Below are positions 11,691 to 61,153 of a stretch of DNA of 64,000 bases, piece by piece. Every line of letters begins with the position of its first letter. The first letter of the stretch is position 1. Both the position numbers and the translations under genes were made by a program. The notes beneath the pieces were generated by a model. That model was not told where the DNA came from, did no database searches, and saw only the letters and a program-made list of their open reading frames with translations. This stretch comes from Medicago truncatula (Eukaryota; Streptophyta; Magnoliopsida; Fabales; Fabaceae), in NCBI RefSeq assembly GCF_003473485.1, contig NC_053042.1, positions 8,393,501-8,457,500 on the forward strand. The letters are read 5' to 3'.

Positions 11691-11978
11691 CGCATCACTA
11701 ATTCTTATTAAGTGTGTTACAAAAGTTTTAATGAATGTACAAATATTATTTCTCTTAATTCAAAAGATTTTTTTCGTAGTCCACCAATAAAAGACTTAAT
11801 TAAGCTGACACTCTAGAATCCACCCATAAACAATACCAGTTCTACAAAAACACTTTAAACACAATTTAATTGTGTTTAGTTTTTTTAGTGGAGTTATGGT
11901 GTATAGTTTTTTGTTTTTGAATATTGTGTTTAGTTTTTTTTAGGAAGATTAATTGTGTTTAGTTTTTTTTAAGGATAT

Positions 11979-12129
11979 ATACCCTCCGGTCACTATTATA
12001 AGCAAAAATCTACATTTTAGATTCATTCATTTAATGATGCACATGATCTTTATTATAGACCACATACATCATTAAATAAATGAACCTAAAATGTAATCTT
12101 TTACTTATATTAATGATCGGAGGGTGTAT
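11979..12129. mobile_element. Stowaway-type MITE (same family as 25440-25590)
   Basis: The left arm is taccctccggtcactattat and the right arm its near complement, ending taatgatcggagggtgta. TA-type flanks are present. It is about 150 bp, and most of it folds back on itself. A related, better preserved copy lies at 25440-25590. Confidence 0.8.
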
Positions 12130-20436: not shown

Positions 20437-21143
20437 AAATGAATCGATGAAAAATCACACAAGTAAATACTTGATGCGTGGAGTAAGTAATAATCAAGCA
20501 ACCAAACAAAGTATATGAAAGTTATAAACATAAGCAAAAGTAGAAAACAGCGATAGAAAGAAAGAGAGAACACACGAAATTTGTTTCCCTTGTTCGGTCC
20601 AAAACTGACCTAGTCTAGGGGAAAGAGCATCCCTCCGTTCCACTATAATAATGAGTAACTTTACAAAAGAGATATCAATGGGTTACAAGAATAAGTCTCC
20701 CGCCTAATTCTACTCAAAGTCTCAATCTCTTCCCGTGATCAAGAGACTCAATCATAATAGTGTTTCCTAAGGTGAATCAACCCTAACCTTGGTGTTTGTT
20801 GCCAAGAGCAATCTCTATACAAACCCTAGTTTTCTTGTTGACTTCTAAACCCTTGTTTCAACCCCCTCTATCTCAAGGTTTACATCTGATACAAGGTCTA
20901 TTTTATAGTAAAAGTACCCCTCATAAAATTGGAACAAATCTGACCCATAAAAATACGTTTTATTTTTATGTTGTTACGACAATTTGGGCGTCGATTTTGA
21001 CCATCCGGGCCTCGAAAAATGTCAAATAAAAAGTCTTCAAAAACATTCCAAATTCGGGCCCCGGACAACATCATTCGGGCCCCGATTTTGACTTTCCAGC
21101 AAATTTCAATTTCTCAGATTTTGAGTCACTTTCACAATAATCT
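20437..21143 (-). repeat. Copia fossil, 3' LTR
   Basis: Shares about 540 bp with 22216-22772 in direct orientation and has an extra outer (U3-side) part. Placed at the 3' end because the gag remnant reads toward it. Confidence 0.7.
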
Positions 21144-22215
21144 CCACCTTGACTCTAAATTAGTGATGATGCCAATTTAACATCAACCACCATGCTGCTC
21201 TTTCCCTTGCTTCCCACTACACCAAGTAGCTCCACAAGTTTACACCAAACCTCTTCAACCATCGGAATGCCTTCCGCCCATTTGAAGATTCTTGCATCCA
21301 CCGCCTCTCCAAGCTGACGTTTAGTGTTTAACGTCACTCTACCAGACATCACTCCCAAGGTGAGAAACATCACCTTCTTCATCCTCCAAACAACACACCA
21401 CAAAAGCACCCGCGTCCTCATAACCCTCAGAAACAATTTGTGCGGAGTTACCAATTAATCTCCGGACAATCCTTGATGAAGTGATCCATCTTGTTACAAT
21501 TAAAGCATTTAAACTTTGACTTGTTACCACTCTTTCTCTGGTTACCTCTACCTCCACCATTTCCTTTTGAAACACTTAGGCCTTCACTGTTTTCACCAAC
21601 TATCAAGTTCTTGGACTTGGTTAACTCCTTGGTTCTCAAAGCCGCTTGAACTTCTTCCAAGATAATAGTGCCTTATTTGCCATAGAGCATGATATCTTTG
21701 AACGATTCAAAAGATCTCGGTAGAGCACACAACAAGAGTATATCTTCATCCTCAAGATGCACCTCATTATTTTCCAAGTCATCAAAGATTTTGTTGAACT
21801 CCGTAAGTTGCTACATGATGGCCTTTGACTCCACCATCTTGAATGAGTAGAGTTGTTGCTTTAGGAATTGTCGATGTCCCAAAGACTTTGTCATATACAA
21901 AGACTCTAACTTTGACCACATCGACGCCACGGTTGGTTTCTTCGCTACTTCTTTCAAAACTTTATCCCTGAGGCATAAGACAATGACACTCATGGCCTTG
22001 TCTACCATCTCGGTCTTCTCCGTTCGTGACATGGTAACCGGTAATGCACCTTCACCCTTCAAAGCTTTCTCATATTTTTGCTGTATTAACATTGCTTCCA
22101 TCTTTACCTTCCATAACCCAAAATCGTTATCTCTAGTAAATTTCTCAATATTTCACTTCGAACCCATGATACTTGATTATCCTTTGATCATTGCCCCACG
22201 GTGGGCGTCAATTGT

Positions 22216-22772
22216 TGTGAATTCGATGAAAAATCACACCAATAAAAACTTGACGTGTGGAACAAGTAATAATCAAGCAACCAAACAAAGTGTATGGAAG
22301 TTATAAACACAAACAAAAGTAGAAAACAATTAGAGAAAGAAAGAGAGAACACACAAAATTTGTTTACCCAGTTCGGTCTAAAACTGACATAGTCTTGGGG
22401 AGAGAACAACCCTCTATTCCACTATAATGATGAGTAACTTAACAAAAGAGATACCAATGAGTTACAAGAATAAGTCACCCGCCTAATTCTACCTAAAGTC
22501 CTAATCTCTTCCCGTGACCATCAAACTCAATCCTAATAGTGTTTCCCAAGGTGAATAAACCCCAACCCTAGTGTTTGTTGCCAAGAGCAAACTCTATACA
22601 AACCTTAATTTTCTTGTTGACTTCTAAACCCTTGTTTCAGCCCTCTCTATCTCAAGGTTTGCATCTAATACAAGATCTATATTTATAATAAAATTATCCC
22701 TCATAAAATTGGAACAAATCTGACCCATAAAATTACGTTTTATTTTTATGTTGTTACGACAATTCGGGCAGT
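22216..22772 (-). repeat. Copia fossil, 5' LTR (incomplete)
   Basis: Direct copy of the 20437-21143 sequence that stops short at about 22772. The primer-binding-site region and gag follow on the minus strand. Confidence 0.7.
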
Positions 22773-25439: not shown

Positions 25440-25590
25440 CTCCCTCTGGTCACTATTATAAGCAAAACTTCATTTTTTAGATACATTGAATGATTAATGT
25501 ATCTAATATTTATTATAGAATAAATACATTAATTATTCAATATATCTAAAAAGGGAAGTTTTGCTTATAATAATGACAAGAGGGAGAGAG
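25440..25590. mobile_element. Stowaway-type MITE, complete
   Basis: ctccctctggtcactattat at the left is matched in inverse at the right by ataataatgacaagagggag. TA flanks lie at 25438-25439 and 25591-25592. The arms pair over most of the 151 bp, so a transcript would be a long hairpin. Same family as 11979-12129. Confidence 0.9.
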
Positions 25591-36141: not shown

Positions 36142-37220
36142 CAGTAGAAACTCTATAAATTAATAATGTCAGGATCGGAGAAATTTATTAATTTAGAGAG
36201 TTATTAATTTATCGATAAATTAATAATTATTAATTTAAAGAGTTTTTAAGTAATTATACTGTACATACCAAACAAAAAGGCAAATTAGTCTATGTCTCTT
36301 AGAATTACGTTGCACCAAATATTGTCCAGCACATCCAAGAAATATTGAAGGGTTAAGAAACATTGAGTTGTTCTTCTTGCCACCCAACATGACATCAAAG
36401 ATTCAACCTTGCGATGCTGGGATAATAAGAGCTTTCAAGATGCATTACCGTAGAAGGTTTTACCGCAAAATATTGGAAGGTTATGAGGTGGGACAATCTG
36501 ATCCAGGGAAGATAAATGTCCTTGATGCTATCAATTTGGCAATCCCAACTTGGACGATAGATGTTCGAAAAGAAACAATAGCGAATTGCTTCCGACACTG
36601 TAAAATTCGTTCAGCTAGTGACGTTGTAGGAAATTTGGATGAATCCACTTTTGATGAAGAAACTCAAGACCTCCAGACTATGATCAATCAATGTGGCTAT
36701 CGTAATAAGATGGATATCGACAATCTAATGAACTACCCAGGTGAAAATGAAGCATGTTCGGAGGTTCAGAGTTTAGAAGATATTGTGTGTACTATCATTG
36801 AGAACAATGCAGAGGATGACGAACGAAGATGATACGGTGTCTTTGGAGCCTGTTACGCGAAAGGAAGCACTTATGGCGTCGAACACTCTTCACAACTTTA
36901 TGATACAATACAAAAATACAACACCTCAGCTATTGGATGCAATAAGAAAAGTTAGAGATGAGCTTCAAACAAACTTGAACTTTAAAGGAAAACAAACAAC
37001 TATTGAATCATATTTCAACAAAGTGTAATATATTTTTTTTTTTCAGTTTCTATGAATTATTAATTTATGATTTTCTTGGGACCGAAAATTATAAAGGAAT
37101 CTCCCAAAAAATTATTATCTTATTATTTTATCGAATTATTCAATTTTTTACACTGGCTCAAGTCGGGACCGGACAAATTTATTATTTTAGAGAGTTTATT
37201 AATTTAAAGAGTTTTTCCTG
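36142..37220 (+). mobile_element. Pogo-like (Lemi1/Emigrant-type) DNA transposon, internally deleted
   Basis: The left end cagtagaaactctataaatt closely matches the Emigrant/Lemi1 terminal repeat. The right end, aaagagtttttcctg, is its degenerate complement. TA target dinucleotides lie at 36140-36141 and 37221-37222. Subterminal 'aatttattaatttagagag' and 'attaatttaaagagttttt' occur at both ends. The 1,079-bp copy contains only the last part of a transposase. Lemi1 was described as a pogo-like transposon of Medicago that leaves either MITEs or partly deleted copies; this fits the second kind. Confidence 0.85.
36320..37028 (+). pseudogene. Pogo/Tigger-type DDE transposase, C-terminal remnant
   Basis: From about 36322 the translation reads CPAHPRNIEGLRNIELFFLP, then PPNMTSKIQPCDAGIIRAF, the region after the second catalytic Asp of DDE_1 (Tigger/pogo) transposases. 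The Asp-Asn normally preceding CPAHP is lost at the deletion point, as are the DNA-binding half and the first catalytic Asp. The frame runs to 36832. A one-base shift near 36810-36830 moves the remainder into the next frame, which ends GKQTTIESYFNKV at 37028. It cannot be active. Downstream of CPAHP the rest is well kept, suggesting a fairly recent loss. Confidence 0.85.
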
Positions 37221-37919: not shown

Positions 37920-38220
37920 GGTTAAAATATGGTTTTGATCCCTGCAAATATGTTTCGTTTTGGTTTTAGTCACTGTAATTTTTTTTTGTTGTTTTTGGTC
38001 CCTGCAAAATATTTTACTTTTGAAAATAGTCCCTGACTATTTTCAAAAGTAAAATATTTTGTAGGGCCCTTTTTAAAAATCAAAAGATTTTATAGGGACT
38101 ATTTTTTTAATAAATGAGTTCAGTCATCATGTGTCACGTGTGCAAATCATCACAAAAGTGGGGTCAGGGACGAAAACCAAAACGAGACATATTTGCGGGG
38201 ACCAAAACTATATTTTAGCC
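37920..38220. mobile_element. MULE-type MITE with 9-bp target duplication
   Basis: ggttaaaatatggttttgat at the left and aaaactatattttagcc at the right are inverted copies, and the match extends through ccctgcaaatatg and catatttgcgggg. Target duplication taaatagaa (37911-37919) versus taaatacaa (38221-38229), 8 of 9 matching, is the Mutator length. A second, perfect internal palindrome lies at 38005-38066. This 'ccctgcaaatatg' family is very frequent in Medicago. Confidence 0.9.
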
Positions 38221-38442
38221 TAAATACAAACAACTCTTATTGATGTGGTAATACCTAATAATTTTCACATAATCATTCGGTTTTATTAAAAATGAGTTCT
38301 ATTAATTTAAAGATCGATCAAGAAATAATTGAAATCTAACAAAAAAAAATTATCTCATTTGGTAATTAAAGTTTAATAATTAATTTTTTTGAAACAAATG
38401 ATCAAATATTGTTTTGGGTCTTGTTAACGAGTATCCCAGAGG

Positions 38443-38790
38443 ATAAGATGGTTTAACTGCAAGCAATTTTGTGACAACATCACTAGTAATTGTATTCATA
38501 TTCACAGAGAAGGCAATTTGGTGGCAGATGCTCTTGCCAAGAATGCTCAAAATCTTTCTTTATACTCCACTCAATGGTGGACCCCCCCCCCCCCCCCCCC
38601 CCCCCCCCCGCCCTTTTATTTCTTCTTTGCTTCGTAGGGATAGCTTGGGTTTGCCGGTTACTAGATTCACCATGCTTTGAGTTTCCCCCTTTCTACTGGT
38701 TGAGGGTTTTGTAGAACTTTGGATGTAATTGGTTCAGGCCTCTCCTGCTCATATTTGATTTCTAGCTTTATCAAAAAAAAAAAAAAAAAA
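38443..38790 (+). mobile_element. 5'-truncated L1 LINE tail, left copy
   Basis: The + strand encodes the end of a LINE RNase H domain (HIHREGNLVADALAKNAQN at about 38498-38555). A 3' untranslated part and a poly(A) run follow (38773-38790). It is bounded by a 16-bp target duplication: acgagtatcccagagg at 38427-38442 and acgagtgtcccagagg at 38791-38806. A poly(C) run of nearly 30 bases lies inside. Insertion happened before the 1.9-kb duplication, since both copies carry it. Confidence 0.88.
38582..38612 (+). repeat. Poly(C) tract
   Basis: Almost 30 consecutive C with one G, inside the short LINE tail. The matching tract in the right copy (about 46068-46090) is shorter and begins ctctccc. Confidence 0.9.
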
Positions 38791-39919
38791 ACGAGTGTCC
38801 CAGAGGCACTCTTTAAACATCCTAAATTTAATAATTATTCTTTTAAAAAATCAACTATTACAATCTTCAATGCATTCAATACATCATTTTTCAATAAAAA
38901 CTTACTATTTAACATGTTTAAAGAATCGGAGAAACTCGTTAACATTTTTCTATTGTTTTAGATGAAGTTAATTATCCACTTAAGATGAATCGGTGCAAGT
39001 ATAAAGCTACCTTATGCAGGGAAAAAGTGGCTACAATTTTATAAAAGGAACGAGTCTCGCTGAAGAAGCATGTTGACCCAGAAATAAATGATTGGGCGAG
39101 TTCTTTAACTCATGACATGTGTTTTAACTTTTAATCAAACAAAACAGTACTCTGTAATACTAATCCCTTGATTTTGGCACCAAATTGTACGTTAAACCAT
39201 ATATCTAACAAAACGATATCTAACAACTAGCATTAAAATTTGGTTTGGTAAAGACCTAAGTAAACATGACAAATCAATACGTACCTTGTCGATACATTTT
39301 TTTTAAGAGATACTTTGTTGATACGTATAGATAAAATCAGCTTCCTATTGTTTTAATGTAAAAATTTCACACATGAAAGAAACCTTAGCCAAAAAACTTT
39401 TGTTGTCATAGAGGAAGAAATTCTACATAGAATTAATAAATAAAAAAATATAGACAATGAACAAGACTCTATATAAATTTAAAATCTTAGGAAATCAATA
39501 ATTTCCCAATTCTTGCAGTAAAGCTAGAACAATAGTACTATTCATATTACAACAATGAGTTTAATAGTATATATATATAAAATATAGAAACTAGAAAAAT
39601 GCTTATTAATTTCTACATGCTTGATAGGATGATGATTGTCAATTCATGCGATGCAAGCCATATGGCTTAATTCTGAAGAAGGGTGGCGGGCTGCTCCAGT
39701 AAAATAAAAAAGCATGCCTCAGCCGTTCTGGTGATTGCTCAACCACCGTCCAAAAATGCGACATTTTATCGGAAGCACGCTTCTGATAGTATTTTTATTT
39801 TGAGCTGGGGCGAATTAAGAAATTTTCTAATGATTATGTGAAAATGTTGAATCCAAAATTAAACCCAAAACCCATAACTTTAGAGAACCCTTATCCTTAT
39901 GATTAATTTTGGGGGTTAT

Positions 39920-40226
39920 TTAGAACTGGATCTTGCTAGAGAAAGATTGACCAAATCCCCAATTGGAAGGAACAATGTCTTGGAAAGTTCTGGTTACTCC
40001 ATCGGTAGTTGTGACCTTGAAGGACATAGATTGAACATTCAAATAAGCATTGGATTGCCAATTTGCACCCCAATTTCTTGACATAGCCATCCAATCAGTT
40101 TTGGAACCTTTAATGGAAACAGATTGGATTGAACCAGCACCAGCCAAATTGCTGATCAACACTAACTCAAAGTAGTCCCTTCCATTCACACTGAACCTAA
40201 CTCCTCCATGCTTTTTGCAAGGAACC
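39920..40226 (-). pseudogene. Orphan alpha-expansin exon 3
   Basis: Duplicate of the third exon of the expansin gene at 47403-47709, with an intact 307-base frame and splice acceptor but no exons 1-2 upstream; the LINE lies there instead. It encodes the C-terminal cellulose-binding-like domain (WMAMSRNWGANWQ, then the Gly-Phe-Gly-Gln end). It differs from the other copy by Val in place of Gly in the 'YLNGQSMSF' motif, consistent with loss of constraint. It cannot make an expansin from here unless spliced across 8 kb. Confidence 0.88.
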
Positions 40227-40298
40227 CTGCCCAAAAATGTTCAAATATATATCATACTCATTAATCTTTTTTTTTTTTTTGACATAAACCAAGGTATT

Positions 40299-43200
40299 TC
40301 ATTGATAAAGAGGGAAATCCTTACATAAAGATGGATAGATTTGTTGAGGGACAGACCCCACCCAACATATATTTCCAACTGTTTTTGCCAATCCCACAAG
40401 GCTATGGGCTACTTGATTACAACTTCTTCCAGCAAAATTAACAGAACAAGTGCTAAAACGTGACAAATAATCTAAACAGTCTAGGATTAGAAACTCAATA
40501 GCTGCAATTTTCTTCCTACGAAGTAGGCAATGAACAACCTGTTCAGCATCAGTCTCTATACACAGGCTTGTGAATTGCTCCCCTTCCGCCCAGCTTAAAC
40601 ACCATCTAAGCGCAAGCCTCTCAGCCACGAGCGGGGTCACCATCATCTCTTCCTTACGAGTAGCAGAGAACAGAACAGCACCATGGTGATCTCTAGCAAC
40701 AAAACCCCAACCTGTGCTGCCATCTGTGAAAACTCCAGCATCCACATTGATCTTGACAGTACCTGTCTGAGGAGGGCACCACCGAGTGGGAGCGCGGGAG
40801 ATTGGATGACACGCTGCTTTTCTATTAGCCAAATTAAACTCTTCAACTAGAAGCACTGCTGACTGCGCAATTAAGGCAGGGTCAAAAGGTGAGTTCTTAA
40901 AAATCAATTGGTTCCTTCCCTGCCACAACCGCCAAAGGGTAATACCAAAAACCTGGACAGCTAGAGGGTCATCCTTCTTCAACCAAAGTTCCATCCACTC
41001 TCTACACATACTGTTGGGAGGAATATGAATTCCAAGTGGAGATGAAAACCAAACAGCTTTCGCAGCCGGACAGTGCAAAAAGAGATGATTCAAATCTTCC
41101 AGACCAGAGTTACAAAGAGGGCACGATTGGTCCAGAGATATACCTTTTTTACTGAGATTACATCTGGTAGGGAGAATGTTGCTAGCAAGCCGCCAAAGGA
41201 AATTTTGGGCGCTCCTGGGACCATTGAAATTCCATATCTGCTTCCAAATATCAGATCCTCTCACTGAGGAGGATTCAGCCACTTCTTTAGATTTGTTCTC
41301 ACACAGTAAGTGGTGGCCTGACCTAACTGAGTATTCACCTGATTTCTCCCATTGCCACGTAACTTTGTCATCAGGAAGTCTAAAAGAGATTGGGATGCTA
41401 AGGATTTTCTTCGCAATGAAGCTGTTGAATGAAGCCATAATTCTTTCTCTATCCCACGAACGAGTTTCGTGAACGATAAGATCAGCTACGACTGCATCCT
41501 CATCAACTGTACCTTCTGTTCTCTGAATCGGAGTACACCGTGTTCCAGGAATCCAGTTGTCTTTAAAAATCCGAACAGTTCTGCCGTTGCCAATCACCCA
41601 ATGAGCGTCGTTCTCCACCAGCTCTCTAGCTTTCATGAGGCTTCTCCATGCATATCTCGGTTGGAATCCCACCTTGGTGATAGAAATGCTTGTCCGGGGA
41701 AAATACCTGCTTTTCAGAATACTAGACATAAGAGAATTATTGTCAGCCAAAAGTCTCCAATATTGCTTTCCAAGAAGAGCTTTGTTAAAATCACTGAAAG
41801 ACCGAAAGCCCAAGCCCCCTCTCTTCTTGGTTTCTCCGAGCCTACCCCATCTCATCCAGTGAATTTTCCTCTTGTATTCATCAGAAGCCCACCAAAATTT
41901 GGCCAGCATTCCTTCCACAGCATCACAACAACCTTCTGGCAGCTTGTAACAACTCATGATGTAATTTGGGATAGCCTGAGCAACTGCTTTGATTAAAGTT
42001 TCTTTCCCAGCACGGGAGAGACATTTCTCTTTCCAGCCTTTGATCTTCTTCCACACTCTCTCTTGGACAAAGGAGAAAACCTCCTTCTTAGACCTACCAA
42101 AAATCACCGGCAAGCCTAGGTATCTGGAATGGGTATTCACAGTCTTTATATTAATCCTTTGACAGATGATTTCTTTATCATGATTAAGCACATTTCGACT
42201 ATATGAAACCTCAGACTTGTCCAAGTTCACAATTTGACCCGAAGCATCCTGATAAGTATTGAGAACAGAGATGATACATTGAGCTTCCTCCACACTTGCC
42301 CTGGCAAATAACAGGCCATCGTCTGCAAACAGTAAATGGGTGATCTTTGGCGCATTCCTAGCTATCCGGATTCCATGAATTTTGTTGTCCTTTTCTTCTT
42401 TCTTAAGGAGACCCGAGAGCACATTTGCACACAAAATGAAAAGATATGGGGACAATGGGTCACCCTGGCGCAATCCCCTTTCTGGAAAGAACCTACGACT
42501 TGGTTGGCCATTGATGAGAATTTGATACGAAACTGTGGAGATACACTGCAAAATAGTGTTAATGATATTCTCAGGGAAATTCATAGATTGAAGCATGGAT
42601 TTTACAAAGGACCACTCTATCCGGTCATATGCCTTGGCCATATCGAGTTTCATCGCCATCACCCCTTTCTTTCCTTTAGTTTTCTTTTTCATCCAATGGA
42701 AGCACTCCATGGCAATAATAGCATTATCAGTAATAAGCCTCCCTTGAACAAAGGCGCTTTGCTCCTCATCCATAATTTCCGGAAGGATTGGCTTTAACCG
42801 GTTGGCAATAGTTTTAGTAACAATTTTCATCACCACATTACATAGGCTTATGGGGCGGAATTGGTTAGGAGAGGATGGGTTCTTACATTTAGGAATCAAA
42901 GCTATGAAAGTTTTGTTGATGCATTCTGTTGATTTTCCTTCATTAAGAATACCCAAGGCTAGAGAAACAACCTCACTCCCAACTATGTACCAGTACTTTT
43001 GAAAGAAAAGAGCAGGTAAACCATCCGGGCCAGGAGCTTTAAGAGGGTGCATTTGATCAATCGCATCCTTGATCTCAGCTGGGGAGAAACTACGGTTACA
43101 CCACTCCACATGCTCAGGAGAGAGCCTATCTTTAACCACTAAACAAGTCTGATCCACTGTTGTTGGATTTGAAGAAGTGAATAATCCAGCAAAATAATCA

Positions 43201-44393
43201 ACAAGCACCTTCTCCACCTTATCTCTACCATTCCACCAAACACCCCTGTCATCCTTGATCTTTTTTATTGAGTTAATCTTGCCTCTCTGTTTCGCTTTTG
43301 CATGGAAGAACTTAGAATTCTTATCCCCTTCCTTCAGCCACGTTGCTCGACTCCTCTGCCGCCACATAGTCTCCTCTGTTTGGAGCAGCTCCGAATGTTT
43401 AGCTTCCAACTCTCTGAACTTTGTAATATTATCAGGAGAACCATCCCAAGAGGCGTGGTTATTGAGTTGGGTTTCAATCTCCAACAGCTCCTTTCTGATT
43501 TCAGATGTTATGTACTCTTTGAACTTAGAGTCTAGGGATTGCATGGCTTCAATCTTGCTAGCCAAACCTGTTGCATTATTCCAGGAGCCTCTAACCATTG
43601 CTTCACATCTGTCATCATCAGCCCAACACTTTTCAAACCGGAACACATGAAGCTTTTTCTTATGCGCATCCTCCAAACACACATCCAACTCAATAGAAAT
43701 AGCAGCATGATCAGACCCAAATCTTGCCAAGTGATTGATCTGAATGGGGGAAAACCGTTTGATAAATTCATCAGAAGCAAAAACCCGATCCAATCTACAT
43801 TAAATTCTACCACTTCCATGTCTGCCATTTGACCATGTAAAAGGGTAACCATTAAAGCCCAAATCAAGAAGGTTGCAATCTTCCACCGCATTTCTACTCA
43901 AGGACAGTTGCAAAAAACTTCTAATATTACCACCGGCCTTCTCTTCATTTGAAAGGATATCATTGAAATCCCCGCAACATAACCACATATCCTCCTCAAC
44001 CGGAGTAAGACTTCTCAGCAAATCCCATGTTTTCTTTTTATTTGTTTCATCCGGGTACCCATAAATTCCAGTAATACTCCAATATTTGCCACTTTCAACA
44101 TCTTCAATCCTCCCCATAATATGGTTTAGAGAGTAAGATCTAATTGACAGGTTTACACTATCCATCCACAAAAGCGCTATATCACATGCCCTTTCTTTAC
44201 CAAAACCATCACAAGGAACAAACAAACCAGAAGAGAATCCACAATTGATTCTGACTCTCTCCATTTCATCAGACTTTAATCTAGTTTCCATTAAGAAAAC
44301 TACTTGAGGATTTTGGATACGGATGAGCCTTAACAAGGCTCGAATTGCCCGAGGGTTCCCCAACCCCCTACAATTCCAACTTAAGAGTTTCAT
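40299..44393 (-). pseudogene. L1 LINE ORF2: endonuclease, reverse transcriptase, RNase H
   Basis: The polyprotein would nick DNA and copy LINE RNA into the target. Endonuclease part 44393-43800 starts MKLLSWNCRGLGNPRAI and has the GDFND motif. An in-frame TAA at 43800-43802, in a context where related elements carry Gln (CAA), separates it from the rest. The 1,164-residue frame then follows from 43793. Reverse transcriptase spans about residues 240-600, with the catalytic FADD at about 489-492. The zf-RVT domain (CPLCNSGLEDLNHLFLHC) is at about 900-930. An RNase H domain (NVDAG, AERLAL, ETDAEQV) spans about 1010-1130. Apart from the single stop the protein looks complete. Confidence 0.92.
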
Positions 44394-44531
44394 TGGGGTA
44401 GGAGGTGTTGGTCATCCAACACCCCCTCTGGTTTATTGATATCAATCTCCATAGCTACAAGATATCTCTTTTTCTCAGCACCTCCCATCACCTCCACAAC
44501 ACTATCTGTGACAGTAGCTACACATAACTGC

Positions 44532-45638
44532 CTAATTCCCTCCTAATTTCTTCCCTTTATCTTGGGCTTTTGGCTTTTGAATTTTGGGACCCTTTTGGCG
44601 ACTCCACTTCTTTCTCACCTTAGTTTCCTGCTTCTTATCCTTCGCACCAGTAGCAGACTTTTGAGATAAAGAAACCGAGTCTAGAGTTTCAGCTACACCT
44701 TCAATAGCCTTGCTTGTTTCTTCAGACCTTGCATCCAACGCAACATTTTGTTTTTCCCCCACAGGGGTCTCTGCTTCGTCAGCAACAAGCGCTTTTGAGG
44801 TTTTCTCCTCTCCTGCTTCAGAACACTTACTTGAACTAGTTGAGGAGAAAAGTGACTTACTGCACGTACCAGTGTTAGGTTCCTTCTTGAATTCCAACTG
44901 AACCTTTGGTAATGGAGAAGCTCTCATCCAAGAACCATAGGCTTGATCCTGTTCTTCCACGTCTGTATACCCTTCACTATCTTGTCCCGTTTCCTCTTCA
45001 CATTCCTTCATCTGATGGCCAATCCTCCCACATTTGTAGCAGAAGTTGGGTAATCTTTCGTACTTGAAAAAAATTCATAGGTTTCTTTTCTGGTATTTCA
45101 GCACAGTACCTCGCTTCAAAGGGTTCCTCAGATCTATCGCCACTTTGATTCGAATAGATTTCCCCATTCTGTTGTTGTCTCTTGGATCCACTTCAAGGAA
45201 TTTTCCTACTAGATCTCCAATTTTTTTTGCCATTAAATCATACCTCAGCTTAAGGGGAAGATCATAAATTCTCACCCAGAACTGAACAGTGTGTAAATCC
45301 AGCTCTGAGGGTTGTTCCTCTCCTGAAATCGTATCCAGAATCAGAAGGTTACGGTCGAAGCTCCACGGACCTGATTGAAGGATGTTTTCAGCATCTCTGC
45401 GTGAGGAGAACTTGAACAGGAAGAGATTTTTATTCAGATCTTGAATCTCAACAGTGTTCTTCAGTCTCCAAGCTTGGATCATTGTCTGCTTAAAAGCTCT
45501 CACATTGTACGGAACATCGGTCCAGATCTTTCCTACTAATGTGCGACCGAAAGCTTCACCCTCTGTAATGACATCTTCCTCTACTGTGATTCCTTCACCC
45601 TCTTCCTCCATTAACCGCGCGACCCTTTCTTTGTCCAT
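44532..45638 (-). pseudogene. L1 LINE ORF1 (DUF4283, CCHC knuckle)
   Basis: RNA-binding ORF1 protein of plant L1 elements. It starts MDKERVARLMEEEGEG at 45638. The DUF4283 fold follows (about residues 30-170, including GKIWTDVPYNVRAFK and GPWSFDRNLLILD). A frameshift in a T-run near 45070 comes next, then the knuckle FCYKCGRIGHQMKECEE (about 45050-45000) and a Ser/Glu/Lys-rich tail ending at 44532. A second frame extension upstream to 45722 lies in the leader and lacks conservation. Confidence 0.85.
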
Positions 45639-45683
45639 CGCAAAAACCACGAAACCACACCCCGCACAAACCACACAAAAAAA

Positions 45684-45848
45684 ACAACCTACACTAAGGA
45701 AAGGGGCACAACCAGTAATCAAGACTAGAGAAGAGCCACCAAGGAGATGGGTGTAGCCAGAATGGATCTGGGAGGTCCCACCACATAACCCTAGCAGAGC
45801 AAGAGTTGGGGTACAACCTACACTAAGGAAAGGGGCACAACCAGTAAT
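45684..45848 (-). repeat. Partial tandem repeat in the LINE 5' leader (129-bp period)
   Basis: The 36-bp sequence at 45684-45719 (acaacctacactaaggaaag...) recurs at 45813-45848 at the very 5' edge of the element. This gives 1.3 units with a 129-bp period. The edge ends in gtaat, which is also the first five bases of the flanking 1.9-kb duplication. Confidence 0.85.
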
Positions 45849-47749
45849 TAAAGTTTAATAATTAATTTTTTTGAAACAAATGATCAAATATTGTTTTGGG
45901 TCTTGTTAACGAGTGTCCCAGAGGATAAGATGGTTTAACTGCAAGCAATTTTGTGACAACATCACTAGTAATTGTGTTCATATTCACAGAGAAGACAATT
46001 TGGTGGCAGATGCTCTTGCCAAGAATGCTCAAAATCTTTCTTTATACTCCACTCAATGGTGGACCTCTCCCCCCCCCCCCCCCCCCCCCCCTTTTATTTC
46101 TTCTTTGCTTCGTAGGGATAGCTTGGGTTTGCCGGTTACTAGATTCACCATGCCATGAGTTTCCCCCTTTCTACTGGTTGAGGGTTTTGTTTTTTTGTTT
46201 TATGTTAGAACTTTGGGTGTAATTGGTTCAGGCCTCTCCTGCTCTTATTTGATTTCTAGCTTTATCAAAAAAAAAAAAAAAAACGAGTGTCCCAGAGGCA
46301 CTCTTTAAACATCCTAAATTTAATAATTATTCTTTTAAAAAATCAACTATTACAATCTTCAATACATCATTTTTCAATAAAAACTTACTATTTAACGTGT
46401 TTAAAGAATCGGAGAAACTCGTTAACATTTTTCTATTGTTTTAGATGAAGTTAATTATCCACTTAAGATGAATCGGTGCAAGTATAAAGCTACCTTATGC
46501 AGGGAAAAAGTGGCTACAATTTTATAAAAGGAACGAGTCTCGCTGAAGAAGCATGTTGACCCGGAAATAAATGATTGGGCGAGTTCTTTAACTCATGACA
46601 TGTGTTTTAACTTTTAATCAAACAAAACAGTACTTTGTAATACTAATTCCTTGATTTTGGCACCAAATTGTACGTTAAACCATATATCTAACAAAACGAT
46701 ATCTAACAACTACCATTAAAATTTGGTTTGGTCAAGACCTAAGTAAACATGACAAATCAATACGTACCTTGTCGATACATTTTTTTTAAGAGATACTTTG
46801 TTGATACTTATAGATAAAATCAGCTTCCTATTGTTTTAATGTAAAAATTTCACACATGAAAGAAACCTTAGCCAAAAAACTTTTGTTGTCATAGAGGAAG
46901 AAATTCTACATAGAATTAATAAATAAAAAAACATAGACAATGAACAAGACTCTATATAAATTTAAAATCTTAGGAAATCAATAATTTCCCAATTCTTGCA
47001 GTAAAGCTAGAACAATAGTACTATTCATATTACAACAATGAGTTTAATAGTATATATATATAAAATATAGAAACTAGAAAAATGCTTATTAATTTCTACA
47101 TGCTTGATAGGATGATGATTGTCAATTCATGCAATGCAAGCCATATGGCTTAATTCAGAAGAAGGGTGGCGGGCTGCTCCAGTAAAATAAAAAAGCATGC
47201 CTCAGCCGTTCTGGTGATTGCTCAACCACCGTCCAAAAATGCGACATTTTATCGGAAGCACGCTTCTGATAGTATTTTTATTTTGAGCTGGGGCGAATTG
47301 AGAAATTTTCTAATGATTATGTGAAAATGTTGAATCCAAAATTAAACCCAAAACCCATAACTTTAGAGAACCCTTATCCTTATGATTAATTTTGGGGGTT
47401 ATTTAGAACTGGATCTTGCTAGAGAAAGATTGACCAAATCCCCAATTGGAAGGAACAATGTCTTGGAAAGTTCTGGTTACTCCATCGGTAGTTGTGACCT
47501 TGAAGGACATAGATTGACCATTCAAATAAGCATTGGATTGCCAATTTGCACCCCAATTTCTTGACATAGCCATCCAATCAGTTTTGGAACCTTTAATGGA
47601 AACAGATTGGATTGAACCAGCACCAGCCAGATTGCTGATCAACACTAACTCAAAGTAGTCCCTTCCATTCACACTGAACCTAACTCCTCCATGCTTTTTG
47701 CAAGGAACCCTGCCCAAAAATGTTCAAATATATATCATACTCATTAATC
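45844..47749 (+). repeat. 1.9-kb direct duplication, right copy
   Basis: Partner of 38362-40266. Beyond 47749 the sequence continues without a break into expansin intron 2. This copy is therefore joined to the rest of the gene, while the left copy joins the original left flank. Confidence 0.95.
45925..46282 (+). mobile_element. 5'-truncated L1 LINE tail, right copy
   Basis: Same insertion as 38443-38790, duplicated. Both 16-bp target repeats (45909-45924 and 46283-46298) read acgagtgtcccagagg here. The left copy has one changed base in the first repeat. It has about 17 extra bases (a T-rich phrase) in the 3' part relative to the left copy and a shorter C run. Confidence 0.88.
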
Positions 47750-48190: not shown

Positions 48191-49061
48191 TTTTCATGCA
48201 GTATTGAGTGCATAGTTAATGAAGGGTAACAACTTGTTATATTAACCACATATTTAAAATGCGATAACCATCTAATTTGGTGTGAAAATATAATTTTTTT
48301 TTAGAGGGATGTCATTGGTCTTATTATAAGGATATTAACATTTATAATTATTAAAACAAGACAAGATATAGCACAGATCAAAATTCTAACCTTTGAAATA
48401 AGACAGGGACGATCCCTCCTCTATAGATTCCAATCTTTTCCCAAGCAGGTTGTGCCATATCAAAATGCTTTAGAGGTGGGTTGCACCAACCTCCATCGTC
48501 GTTTGGAAGATCAAAATTTGGAGGACAGAAATTTGTGGCTGTTATGGTAATAGATCTTCCTTTTATGCACCATCTTGGGTCTGTCTTATAATCACAAATG
48601 ATTTTGTAGCATTGCCCACATGAAGCTCCATCATTAAACAAAGCAGTACTTAATGCAGCTGTTCTTGTCCCATACCCTTGTGAATACAGATTCCCATAAC
48701 CACAAGCTCCTCCTGAATCACACATATTCAAATTATCGTTACCGATTTACAACTAATCATGACTAACTTATGTAAAGACCTTAAACAATATTCGACTAAT
48801 TCTAACATGATTATATATATACAGAAAATTACACATGAATGGAAGGCATCGCTACAAATAAAAGAAATCTATAAAAAAAAAACTAGAAATAAAATGTTGA
48901 AAAGTGGTGTGACAAGGGCTTACCCATAGTGCCTTCCGCATCACTACCCCATAAAAAGTTGCATGAGCATTGGTCCATCCAGAAGCTTTGAAGGCATAGG
49001 AATTTATTGTGAAACAACATAGTCCAATGAGTGTGCCCAAAATAAACATAACTTTGGTCAT

Positions 49062-51604: not shown

Positions 51605-54600
51605 TCAGAAGTCATCATCATCATCTTCCTCCTCAATATGCTTTGCCAGTTCTTGCTCTTGCTGTTGCCTCTCTCTCCGCTTCTCAGCAATTTCTTTCTC
51701 CTTGTGTGTGTTTTTTGGAAAACGCAGTGCTTGAACAGCCTCATTGTGCATGTTAAGACAGAAGGCAATCCGAGAATTAAAGGCCAACTGAGGCTCATTT
51801 GTAGAGTAAATATCTCCAATTTCCTTGGACACCATCCATCCATTAGCATGATCCAATGTCGCATCAATTGCCCCATCACGGATAGCCTTTGATATAATGC
51901 TTTCAGCATCAGCAATGGGATCTGCAGAGCTCAACCTCAATTTCTGAGCTACATCGGCCAGTGAGATGCGAGAATACGATATACTGATGTTACGCAAACC
52001 AGTCCTGATGACATTATGGCGCAATCGAACGATCAAATTATTGGTTCCGTCTGTATTGAAAGTAGTAGCATACTTCTCTGCAACATTCCTAAAGAGCTCT
52101 AAATCACCAATCCTAACAGCCTGAAATTCCACAACATATACAAACATTACCACAAAGAAGCACGACAGTAAATAATGTATTATGGTTATCAAAAGCTTTC
52201 ATGTTAGATTTGGAAGAGACATCAAAATTGAATAAAAAATAGTGGATTAAGATTTAGAAAACGAAAACAAATAACTTCTAAAATGTGTCTTATTACAGAA
52301 TTTCAACAAAAGGATAATTGTTTCAGGTAATTCAAATTTTAACTACCACAACTTCCAAAATCCTCTACCCTAAGGTGCATCTCAACAGCACGGAAGATGC
52401 ACCGAAAACTGAGTTAACTGAACACAATATACTACAGGGCGCTAGCCTGCAGGCAAGGAAGAAAGTGCATACACAAATATTTATGAGGATATAAATTGGC
52501 TGCATAAATAGTCACATGTTCTCAAAAAACTGAGTTAAACTATATTCAAAAAAAATAAAAAATGACATAGCATTTAAGTGGGTTTTCTATTTTAAAGCTC
52601 TAGTCAACCTTATTTGTGTAAGAAATGATGCCTGTCATTTAGCTTCCTTCAAATTTCATAATAAATCAGTTACATTTTCTCAATTCGAAGTTTGTTTATA
52701 ATATTTTAATTTGATGCAACTCTTTGATAAAATTTGATGACTGCAATGAGGAGAGTAATTCAAAAGCCAACAGTATTATATTTGAAATGATGTTTGTCAT
52801 TAGCTTCTCTCATGTTTCATAATAAAGCAATCTGATTTCTCAATTTGATGTTTTGTTTACAAAATTTTGCTTTGATGTAATATAACTCTACAATGAAATT
52901 TGCCACCTGCAATTTAGAGAGTAATTCAAAATTGTTGTGTATATTCTATTTCATAATAGTCAAATAGTACAATATATGAAAAGATGCACACAAAGGCCTC
53001 ACTTCATTCAGTAGAGTGAATAGCACCAATAATTGAGTAAATCAACTGACGAAAAATAAATAGAATAGCAATAAAAGACAAGGATAAAAAAGTGGATCAC
53101 AAGACGACCTGTTGGGGCTAAAAATGGTACAATTTTTTAATTCACTTTCCAGAATTGTCTGACTAGAACATTTAGTTCCCATAGGTTCAGCTTATTCTGA
53201 AATACATCAACAAGATTTGGATTCTTCCAGATTAAATTTATTTCTAATTGAGTACTTTCATCAACCAATATTTAGAATAAGGTGTATGTTTCAATTGGCC
53301 TACATTCTGGCGAGGCCAAACGACAAAGAACTATTGAGTTTAGGGCAGAGCAAGACTACACTACATCTTTCAATGAAATCTGCCTGAATGCAGCACCTAA
53401 ACTTATTGGTTCACAATTTTGCTATTTATGTCAAAATTTTGGTTAAAAAACATCTGTGAACGCTTTCTTGGCCAATACAGTAAAAATTAAGGCTTTGGAG
53501 TTTAATAATTAAAGAGATAATAAAGAATAAATAAAGAGTACATAGGGTGGAATAATGTGGCAAAGGCACCGGTAAAAAAAAGGAGGGTGCATGTGTCAAA
53601 AAGTTTGGCTACACCAGACCAGTCATGTGATCAATATTTTCTTCAACTGACACTTCATAACTTAAGAGTTATAAAATAGGATAACAGCAACTAGATATCA
53701 GAAAAAAGGAAATTACTAAAAGAATTATATCAAAATAAGAAGCTACAGAAATGACATTTATGATCAAACCAATAGAATAAGTTCACTTTTACTCTGGACT
53801 TTACTATAACTAAGTATAGTTGAAAATGTAAACTTACATTAGTAAGTTCAAAGTAAGGCCTCAAAGCTTTCTCCATTCCTTTCTGGACAAAGATAGTCCT
53901 CTCAGGAATTTCTCCCAACAGTAAACGAACTATAATGGCCCACTTGTTACACTGAATCCGAAACCCCTGTGCTGCAACTGGTGCTTTACGAGCAGCCTGC
54001 AGGAGAGACTCTTTTGCATCGGTATACTCCAACTGAATGGTCCGAATTTTCCCGAGGTAGAAGAGATAGCGACAGAACTAAAACAGAATGCAACAAATGT
54101 AGACATGTCAAGAAAAGAGGAACAAAAAATGAATTTTGACCAACAATTGATTAAACCAAATGAAAACTAAAATATAGAATCATCAAGAAAGATCAACACA
54201 ATATACCTGCTGGTTTGAATGTGCCTCAAATCGTGGAGCCTTCGACCTCAACTTCTCTGCCTGATCATATAGGTTGTAGTGGAGGTAGTTACGAAGTAAC
54301 AAATTAAGAAGTGTTTCCTGCATGACATCACCAGATAAGTATTATGATCCAAAACCTTTACAAATAGCACCGCCAAGCAAGTCAACACCAACCTGACCAA
54401 GCTCATCATGGCGCAAGGTAGCAATCCGGTGCAACTGAAAGAGGGTACTGAAAATAAAGATGCCATTTGGTTAGAAATATGTCAAATCACATTCAGTTGC
54501 AAATCTCACTACGTGTTCTGTTAAACACATATGGATAAGCATCCAGCTCTGAATTCATTTTTAAATTGCATAAACAAGCACCCAACTCACCCTCGAATTT

Positions 54601-56689: not shown

Positions 56690-57539
56690 AGTAAATAGTC
56701 AATTTTCCCCCTGAAATTAACAAAACTTCAATTATCCCCCTGAAATTTCACAACGTTAGTCAATTTACCCCCTCCGTCAAATTTTTATGTTAGTGAACAT
56801 GACGTTTTGCAAATACCCCCCCCTGAAGTTTTGCACTTATGTGCAAAATGTCCTCCAAACTTCAAAATTTATATTATTTTTTTCTTAAAAACAAACAATT
56901 AATAGTTAAATATTAAAGCTAACTATTAATTTTGGAGTTTCGAAAAACTACATACATATATACATCAAAATAGGGAAAAATGTGTATTTTTAAAGTGACA
57001 ATAATGATTATTTATAATAGATAAATTATTATTTTTAGAGGTTTATAAACAAATTAATAATCAGATTTAAATTTATATTTTCTCCTTCACCATCTTAGTC
57101 TTTTAACTCCTCCAACTCCTTCAACAATTTGCTCAAACCATTTAAACTACACCACCCCCAATATTAATCCACAAATCATCCCATTATTGTCGCTTTCAAA
57201 AATACATATTTTTTCCCATTTTGGAGCCTATTTTGATGTATATATGCATGTAGTTTTCCCAAATTCCAAAATTAATAGTTAGTTTTAATATTTAACTATT
57301 AATTGTTTGTTTTTAAGAAAAAAATAATATAAATTTTTAAGTTTGGGGGGCATTTTGCACATAAGTGCAAAACTTCAGAGGGGGTATTTGCAAAACGTCA
57401 TGTTCACTAACAGAAAAATTTGATGGAGGGGGTAAATTGACTAACGTTGTGAAATTTCAGGGGGTAATTGAAGTTTTGTTAATTTCAGGGGGGTAATTGA
57501 TGAAACTTACAATTTCAGGGAAAAAATTGACTATTTACT
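56690..57539. mobile_element. Foldback element with inverted arms over 320 bp
   Basis: The left arm (56690-57010) starts agtaaatagtcaattttccc. The right arm (about 57185-57539) is its complement and ends ttgactatttact. The arms are about 90% alike. The right arm has one extra 26-bp repeat of a 'aatttcaggg' unit near its tip. Only about 175 bp of unique loop is left. No coding frame. Arms this long suggest a MULE-type or foldback element; no clear target duplication is seen. Confidence 0.85.
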
Positions 57540-58479: not shown

Positions 58480-61153
58480 ATGGTGTTGAAAGCACCAGTT
58501 GTTCTTCCTGTTTCTGTTTCTGTTTCTGTTTCAATTTCAGTCACAACATTTTCCTTAAACCCTAACTTCTTCTCCTCTTCAATGCGTTCTACCTTCACAC
58601 TTTTCCGCAGTCTCACCCTCTCCACTCTCCAACTACCTCGCACCCTCCCTTCCCTCCTCCACCTCCGCCGCTTTCCCCGCAACTGCGTTCCCAACGCCGA
58701 ACAATGGCTTCTTCATGAAGACCTTCCTGACAATAACGATAACGATATTTTCCATTTCTCTACGGTGGAGGCTGATGAGAAAAGGCGGCTACCACGTCCG
58801 GAGGTTGAGGTGAAGGAGTTGAGTGAGGTGCCGGAGCTATGGCGGAGGTCCAGAGTTGCTTGGCTTTGTAAGGAGTTACCGGCACATAAGGCGGGAACTC
58901 TGATTAGGATTCTGAATGCGCAGAGGAAGTGGTTGAGGCAGGATGATGCTACTTATATCATTATGCATTGCTTAAGGATTCGCGAGAACGAAACCGCTTT
59001 TAGGGTCAGTAGTATTCTCTTTTCCTTTCACTTTCACTTCTCTACATTTTTGTGTGTTTGGTTATGCAGTGAGAATAAATTATTGTTATGTTATGTGCGA
59101 CTATTCTGACTAAAATTGAGTTTATTATGAAATCAGTCTGTTGTCCCTCCAGGTCGGGTATTAGTTGATTATTATGTGCTTCCTTCTACTGTTTGGAATT
59201 AGTATATGTCTGCTATTATTTATTTGCTTGATTGCTTAAGTTGAACATATTAGAAAGTATTACCTTAAGCTGTAATTTGTTCCCAAATTTAATTATTTTT
59301 CCTGCTTAAAGGTATACAAATGGATGATGCAACGGAGTTGGTATCGCTTTGATTTTGCTCTTTCTACTAGGCTAGCAGATTACATGGGTAAAGAGCGCAA
59401 GTTTACAAAGTGCCGTGAGGTATTTGATGATATTATCAATCAAGGACGTGTTCCCAGCGAGTCAACGTTCCATATATTGATTGTGGCTTACCTTAGTTCT
59501 TCTGTTCAAGGTTGTTTGGATGAAGCATTTGGCATATTCCACCAAATGATTCAATTGGGTGGATACCAGCCACGTCTTAGCTTGCATAATTCCATCTTCA
59601 AAGCTCTTATAAGTGAACCAGGGAACTTTTCAAAGCAGTACCTTAAGCAAGCTGAGTTTATATATCATCGTTTGGTTACAAATGGACTTGATGTGCATAA
59701 AGATATTTATGGTGGCTTAATTTGGCTGCATAGCTATCAGGATTCCATAGACAAAGAAAGAATAGAAGCATTGAGGCAAGAGATGCTACGCGCTGGAATT
59801 GATGAAAGCCAAGAGGTGTTAGTATCGATCTTGAGGGCCTGCTCAAGGGAGGGGGAGGTGGAGGAAGCAGAGAAAACTTGGTGCAAACTTTCGCAGTTTG
59901 AAAGCAACCCCCCATCACAGGCTTTTGTGTACAAAATGGAAGTCTACTCTAAGGTTGGTATGCCTATGAAGTCCTTGGAGATATTTAGAGAAATGAAGTT
60001 GAAACTAGGTAAGACAAGTGTTGCAGCATATAATAAAATAATTGAGATTCTATGCAAAGCACAAGAATCCGAATTTGCAGAATCAATCATGACAGATTTT
60101 GTCAAGAGTGGTCTGAAGCCCCTTACACCATCATATGTTTATTTACTAAACATGTACTTCAATATGGAATCACATGATAAATTGGAAGAGGCGTTCTCTC
60201 AATGCCTCGAGAAATGCCATCCTAATAGTGCTGTATATAGTATATATTTAGATTCTTTGGTGAAAGTTGGTAAAATTGACAAGGCTGAGGATATCTTTAG
60301 CCAAATGTTTCGTGATACGAGTATTGGTGTCAGTGCTCGATCATGTAACATCATCTTAAATGGATATCTATATTCAGGAAATCACTTAAAGGCAGAGAAG
60401 ATCTATGACTTAATGTGCCAAAAGAAGTATGAAATTGATGCCCCATTAATGGAAAAACTTGAATACATCCTGAGTTTGAGAAGGAAAACTATTAAAAAGC
60501 CAATGAGCATGAAGTTAAATAAAGAACAGAGAGAAATACTGATTGGGATGCTTTTAGGTGGTTTGCAAATTGATTCTGATGACAAAAATAAGAACCATAT
60601 TATCCATTTCAATTTTGATGGCAATTCTGTGAGTCATTACGTCTTGAAGAGTCATATACATCGCCAGTTTTATGAGTGGCTACCTCCTACTTCTAAGCCA
60701 AGTGGTGACAGTGAGAACATACCAGGTAAGTTTTGCACCATTCCAAGCTCTCATTTTGGCTTTTACGCCGATCAGTTTTGGCCAAATGGTCAACCTACAA
60801 TTCCAAAACTTGTTCATAGGTGGTTGTCACCTTGTGTTCTTGCATACTGGTACATGTATGGGGGGCATCGAAATTCATCGGGGGATGTTTTGCTGAAGAT
60901 TAAGGGAAGTCGTGAGGGTGTGGAGAACATTGTCAAAAAGTTCAAAGCCATGTCCATTGATTGTAAAGTCAAGGGAAAGGGAAAGGTATTCTGGATTGGT
61001 ATTCTGGGAAGCAATACAACTTGGTTCTGGAAATTGGTTGAGCCATATATTCTTGAAGATGTAAAAGATTTCTCTAAGGCTGGTGTGAATACGATGGGAC
61101 AGGATTTAACGGAAACTCAAGACATTAACTTCAGTAGTGAATCAGACGAATGA
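58480..61153 (+). CDS. OTP51: PPR/LAGLIDADG chloroplast splicing factor, OTP51-like
   Basis: In Arabidopsis OTP51 is needed for splicing of a group II intron of chloroplast ycf3. Exons 58480-59004 and 59312-61153 join at GT-AG to 788 aa, a little shorter than Arabidopsis OTP51. The first about 60 residues are Ser/Thr/Arg-rich and look like a transit peptide, with a hexamer repeat coding for Val-Ser repeats. An alternative Met lies at residue 35. Residues about 110-200 are the conserved N-terminal part (WLCKELPAHKAGTLIRILNA). PPR motifs follow from about 195 to 560. A LAGLIDADG-type domain occupies about 575-770, with helix REILIGMLLGGLQIDSD at about 580 and the second half around WLSPCVLAYWYMYGG. 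No lesion is seen. The name rests on the PPR plus LAGLIDADG combination. Confidence 0.92.
58510..58542 (+). repeat. (TTTCTG)n repeat in the transit peptide
   Basis: About four hexamer units tttctg plus degenerate ones, coding for alternating Val-Ser. In-frame length changes would be tolerated. Confidence 0.85.

Follow-up and report, generated by a model that had tools for sequence, protein, structure and literature searches.

A young L1-type LINE between two copies of a 1.9-kb expansin gene segment in Medicago truncatula, probably the outcome of a single retrotransposition event

Target-site duplications (TSDs) left by long interspersed nuclear elements (LINEs) of the L1 clade peak at 13-15 bp in several vertebrates (PMC4245944), and plant L1-like retrocopies are bordered by TSDs of 13 and 15 bp, or of 17 and 33 bp where these match poorly (PMC4838847; this and all other published work is cited here from extracts of the papers). 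In human cells deficient in nucleotide excision repair, L1 TSDs span 5 bp to 5.3 kb with a median of 1,495 bp, 18 of them being over 1 kb and 47/58 (4/7, 21/23, and 22/28) over 100 bp, while in the complemented cells they span 2 bp to 1.6 kb with a median of 14 bp, 3/9 being over 100 bp (PMC5223499). The authors of that study proposed a distant second nick and mentioned exon duplication. Furthermore, a 1,228-bp TSD was found in one of 25 insertions of the ZfL2-2 LINE in wild-type chicken DT40 cells (PMC2666801), a title cited in PMC7943196 ascribes an exceptionally long TSD to the rotifer non-long terminal repeat (non-LTR) retrotransposon R9, and an oesophageal tumour contains an L1-bridged tandem duplication of 22.6 Mb that was explained by complementary DNA (cDNA) joining a 3' overhang of the sister chromatid (PMC7058536). 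Here, we describe a young L1-type LINE located between two direct copies of a 1.9-kb block containing the final exon of an expansin gene of Medicago truncatula, in a stretch of 64,000 nucleotides of contig NC_053042.1 (positions 8,393,501 to 8,457,500), hereafter the window, whose first letter is position 1 of all coordinates given below.

The arrangement of this locus makes it likely, in our view, that the LINE and the duplication arose together in a single retrotransposition event. The locus seems to be a natural case, from a plant, of a type of aberrant LINE integration already on record rather than of a new type. The published long LINE TSDs share the anatomy of the plant case, which speaks for a single event. 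The large human L1 TSDs likewise consist of a kilobase-scale target duplication on both sides of the element, but they arose in cultured cells from a marked L1 (PMC5223499), whereas the present one is a natural copy in the plant germline. ZfL2-2 also left a kilobase-scale TSD, but as an L2-clade element in cell culture (PMC2666801), and R9, although a non-LTR retrotransposon with an exceptionally long TSD, is specific to ribosomal DNA according to the cited title (PMC7943196). The tumour case shares the position of one L1 between two copies of the duplicated stretch, but its duplication is about ten-thousand-fold larger and somatic, and its L1 insert is small (PMC7058536). A first-pass annotation of this DNA had presented the 1.9-kb duplication as an extreme case and as a route for exon duplication by LINEs; the former claim is overtaken by the kilobase-scale LINE TSDs already published from cell culture (PMC5223499, PMC2666801), and the latter idea had been put forward by one group (PMC5223499). 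No kilobase-length LINE TSD from a plant is among the matches listed in the open-licence literature, a scope outside which most subscription papers lie.

The duplicated block and the LINE occupy the following positions:

38362-40266, left-hand copy (A) of the 1.9-kb block (self-BLAST and global alignment).
40267-45843, minus strand, L1-type LINE of 5,577 bp with a poly(A) of 14 at 40267-40280 (alignment, open reading frames (ORFs), and Pfam).
45844-47749, right-hand copy (B) of the 1.9-kb block, continuous with the remaining expansin gene (self-BLAST and global alignment).

In a self-BLAST of the whole window, copies A and B form a single match (1,921 columns at 97.24% identity, with 22 mismatches and 5 gap openings; E=0), the longest of the repeats listed; the runner-up has 552 columns. 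Global alignment of 38362-40266 with 45844-47749, a check advised by the first-pass annotation, gave one block with 22 substitutions in 1,890 aligned columns (15 transitions and 7 transversions), i.e. a divergence of 1.16%, and four indels, one in a poly(C), one in a poly(A), one of a T-rich 16-bp stretch, and one of 9 bp. The block comprises 40 bp of expansin intron 2 with the splice acceptor, expansin exon 3, and ~1.56 kb of downstream DNA. A divergence of this order is plausible between haplotypes, which brings in an assembly artefact whereby two haplotypes (~1.2% apart) or two paralogous contigs were fused at the LINE; a frame break in expansin exon 1, described below, would likewise mean an imperfect assembly if it were a sequencing error. 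Such a false join, however, would need to coincide precisely with the LINE 5' end, where the 5 nt in common are too short for the usual overlap joins, and to eliminate the true right flank of the LINE. We regard this explanation as quite unlikely.

As claimed in the first-pass annotation, the LINE ends exactly where the copies end (40266/40267 and 45843/45844), since the match stops at four points. In the global alignment, at the left boundary, the flank reads '...CTCATTTG/GTAATTAAAG' and the LINE 5' end '...GCACAACCA/GTAATTAAAG', while at the right boundary '...CATTAATC/TTTTTTTTTTTTTT', which enters the LINE poly(A), stands against '...CATTAATC/ACAACAC' (the slash marks the boundary). On both sides, therefore, the duplication boundary and the LINE boundary agree to the base, save for a 5-nt ambiguity at the left end, where GTAAT is also the expected continuation of the LINE as judged from its internal repeat. 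Copy B passes straight into the right flank without any LINE. Both junctions were read directly and show no short TSD (10-20 bp) of the young LINE, the 1.9-kb block being the only duplication; an ordinary TSD was accordingly rejected.

A LINE that arrived later and independently should have left an ordinary short TSD, so that its absence counts against such an insertion. Tandem duplications are common in plant genomes, and this frequency speaks for a tandem duplication that came first and whose junction was later hit by the LINE by chance. That insertion would nevertheless have had to strike one exact base in ~3.8 kb without leaving a 10-20 bp TSD, and we judge it most improbable. The same arrangement, again without a short TSD, would also result from unequal crossing-over between two LINEs of the same family, each on its own haplotype and 1.9 kb from the other in like orientation, the LINE between the copies then being chimaeric, and a comparable 'pseudo-TSD' rearrangement has been discussed for HERV-K sites (PMC5488345). 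This requires two independent same-orientation insertions within 2 kb as well as a crossover inside them, and no second stretch of the young LINE occurs among the window self-BLAST matches listed; it is, to our mind, very unlikely.

The LINE itself is well preserved and has the following parts:

44532-45638, minus strand, ORF1, with DUF4283 in its first half, one premature stop, and no frameshift (Pfam).
40299-44393, minus strand, ORF2, with one premature stop and no frameshift (Pfam).
45813-45848, minus strand, 36-nt 5'-terminal segment, identical to 45684-45719, whose first 5 nt (45844-45848) are common with the target.
45684-45719, minus strand, internal copy of the 36-nt segment, 129 nt further in (sequence identity).

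Its earlier identification as an L1-type LINE was borne out by the Pfam domains of both ORFs, namely Exo_endo_phos (5e-12), RVT_1 (5.3e-36), zf-RVT (1.2e-17), and RVT_3 (3e-17) in ORF2 and DUF4283 (1.1e-27), which we take to be a marker of plant LINE ORF1, in ORF1, whose second half (44532-45011) has no Pfam match. The element thereby displays the domains of a plant L1-clade LINE, with an apurinic-type endonuclease, a reverse transcriptase, a zinc-binding domain, and an RNase H in addition to DUF4283 and the 3' poly(A). It is probably full length, because 14 A's, adjoining copy A, close its 3' end and a leader of 205 nt precedes ORF1. No relative was recovered from viral contigs with most of ORF2 as query (1,164 residues, 7 pattern matches), nor did a 22-nt motif of the LINE 5' end match any viral or genome contig, but these are not plant collections and such misses say little.

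In the DNA between the two 36-nt copies, the best match to their core is 16/23, a match as good being found in 5/2,000 base shuffles, and Tandem Repeats Finder at its default score listed no tandem array at this end. Weakly related units may be native to the 5' end of this LINE, and the exact 36-nt copy could be filler acquired by a template jump during this insertion, or else be typical of the LINE family. Among 63 resolved 5' joints of deletions mediated by L1 in human tumours, 9 carry short insertions (1-33 bp) and 47 a microhomology of 1-5 bp (PMC7058536). At the present 5' joint, the microhomology is 5 nt (ATTAC/GTAAT), a length that occurs at 9/3,905 nearby positions tested, the true site being among those 9, and this speaks for a single event.

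A single event would have proceeded as follows. A nick of the + strand in expansin intron 2, after ...CATTAATC (40266/47749), would prime reverse transcription of the LINE RNA from its poly(A); the poly(T) adjoining this site is observed, and we infer the priming from the known pathway of target-primed reverse transcription (TPRT). The far end of the cDNA would then join the 3' end of the bottom strand ~1.9 kb upstream (38361/38362) via the 5-nt microhomology, the usual second-strand cut 10-20 bp away not being used as the joining point, and fill-in, or copying of the sister chromatid from the joint, would leave one 1.9-kb copy on each side. For the final step, strand displacement from a distant nick and a template switch fit the sequence equally well. 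The orientation of the LINE fits TPRT, with the poly(A) end at the primed site and the 5' end at the distant one. The first-pass annotation had proposed target-primed insertion with a joint 1.9 kb away, a proposal that gains partial support from a geometry that is as predicted and from the missing short TSD.

The structure would be exactly alike if the LINE had inserted with a short TSD and a later break at its 5' junction had been repaired by copying 1.9 kb from a LINE-free allele or sister chromatid, thereby absorbing the TSD, and the 5-nt microhomology is as compatible with repair as with insertion. This two-step course nonetheless demands a further break at precisely the LINE 5' end, along with a template still free of the LINE. 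Because copy B continues into a LINE-free flank, its template must have been without the LINE, which is automatic during insertion and guaranteed only then. Repair after insertion is in our opinion unlikely, and it constitutes, together with assembly error, the serious rival to a single event. As to the course of that event, we put forward more tentatively, and as a rather doubtful proposal, a series of template switches leading from the 5' end of the LINE RNA back into the 36-nt repeat, and from there via ATTAC to the sister chromatid or to the upstream target 1.9 kb off, followed by replication through the exon.

An older LINE is represented by its 3' end in each copy:

38427-38806, + strand, in copy A, older 5'-truncated LINE 3' end with poly(A) and 16-bp TSDs at 38427-38442/38791-38806 (one mismatch).
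45909-46298, + strand, in copy B, older 5'-truncated LINE with identical 16-bp TSDs.

The presence of an older LINE with a 16-bp TSD within both copies implies that a LINE insertion with a normal TSD preceded the duplication at this place. Its target site, placed by hand, is CTCGTT/AACA and of the TT/AA type, and its short open frame has a weak match, under the Pfam cut-off (E = 0.0084), to the last 20 positions of RVT_3. We also observed in its 3' part a C run, which we judge unusual, of 28 in copy A (38582-38609) and 23 in copy B (46069-46091).

The divergence between the copies corresponds to 0.59% per lineage (0.36-0.88%). At this divergence, 1.2 premature stops (95% range 0.75-1.81) are expected in the LINE ORFs, where 2 are observed. 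The ages of the LINE and of the duplication agree, in what is a weak test. At the plant substitution rate of 6.5e-9 per site per year, the event would be about 0.9 million years old.

Several observations weigh against a single insertion event, or against parts of it. In a HeLa study cited in PMC2912911, the TSDs of 6/6 full-length inserts measured 10-17 bp and extremely long TSDs accompanied 5'-truncated inserts; because of this pattern, a long TSD next to an apparently full-length LINE is atypical. The primed nick, CATTAATC/ACAA, i.e. CTCATTAATC/ACAACACAAT, is not an endonuclease site of the TTTT/AA type, which lowers canonical endonuclease priming as the start of the process, and the priming 3' end may for this reason stem from another nick or break. 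The count of positions with microhomology equal to that of the 5' joint depends on the internal LINE repeat, from which the LINE sequence preceding the joint is deduced. The two premature stops alone permit 0.12-3.5% per lineage, which leaves the age test little power. Finally, the older LINE (38436-38790 for this purpose, an interval placed by hand) accumulated 8 substitutions in 355 bp as against 14 in 1,550 bp elsewhere in the copies (Fisher p = 0.048), a marginal excess that a single event does not itself predict. Faster change of a methylated transposon relic could account for it equally well as error-prone copying, and nothing is concluded from it.

The expansin gene lies on the same strand as the LINE (minus) and consists of the following exons:

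48924-49061, minus strand, exon 1, present once in the window; its frame apparently shifts by one base close to the 3' end.
48391-48712, minus strand, exon 2 (DPBB_1), single copy in the window (Pfam).
47403-47709, minus strand, exon 3 of copy B (Expansin_C), joined to the remaining gene (Pfam).
39920-40226, minus strand, orphan exon 3 of copy A (Expansin_C), with a splice acceptor (Pfam).

The domains confirm the expansin assignment, and the gene is, by our reading, of the alpha type. The first-pass annotation had placed the insertion inside this gene, which holds for the poly(A)-side site, in intron 2, but not for the other site, situated ~1.56 kb beyond the stop codon; its statement that exons 1 and 2 are single-copy was upheld within the window by self-BLAST. 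Exon 3A differs from exon 3B by one silent change and one amino-acid change (V in A, G in B). The nearest solved relatives of exon 3B are Phl p 1 (E 1.4e-6) and beta-expansin 1a (E 9.3e-6), and its glycine is kept in 3/3 solved relatives among the matches listed. The loss of this glycine in exon 3A, together with a lower Pfam score (100.3 vs 103.3 bits), suggests that the copy A exon is the decaying one.

In exon 1, the signal peptide and the continuation into exon 2 are read in frames one base apart, the shift falling at a G run before the donor, so that the gene as assembled is either disabled or affected by a homopolymer sequencing error. An automatic splice model of exon 1, ending at 48884, was dropped as it omits the canonical donor. 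No useful role can be claimed for the extra exon, and the gene probably does not benefit from a second last exon downstream. At 51608-52198, upstream of the expansin gene and on its strand, a proteasome subunit gene is represented by its 3' part (Rpn3_C, PCI).

Other features surround the locus in the window, which has a GC content of 34% and genes of the plant type. A palindrome-like inverted repeat of 70 bp, 91% self-complementary, stands at 38000-38069, ~290 bp left of the left duplication boundary, and, as palindromes of this sort are sometimes prone to breakage, it may have a bearing on the distant nick. A DDE_1 transposase fragment (36368-36832) is found ~1.5 kb left of the duplication. 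Further away, two direct repeats of 550 bp (20440-22769), 89% identical, starting with TGAAT and ~1.2 kb apart, enclose a sequence that is gag-like by eye and probably represent a deleted LTR element. Imperfect hairpins at 11977-12129 and 25440-25586, 81% and 86% self-complementary and matching each other at 74% over 137 columns, probably belong to one family of miniature inverted-repeat transposable elements, and a fold-back element at 56699-57500 has an inverted repeat of 276 columns, 94.6% identical, with arms ~250 bp apart. The ORF at 59324-61153 combines PPR repeats with a LAGLIDADG_2 domain, an architecture known from proteins that process organelle RNA, for instance OTP51.

The published kilobase-scale LINE target duplications that we found, in the extracts cited, come from cell culture and tumours. 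The arrangement described here, in which an otherwise unique sequence occurs as two direct copies with a LINE precisely between them, is a signature that can be counted in plant pangenomes, and a pangenome check is worthwhile because a single event predicts a simple pattern of presence and absence. If serial template switching were true, LINE cDNA ends would start microhomology-mediated replication in plant germ cells and would be a regular source of small, exon-scale duplications. The present case would be a natural and inherited one, with a LINE that is nearly intact and two joints that can be read; if the single-event origin is true, it would show that the process contributes to exon duplication in evolution.

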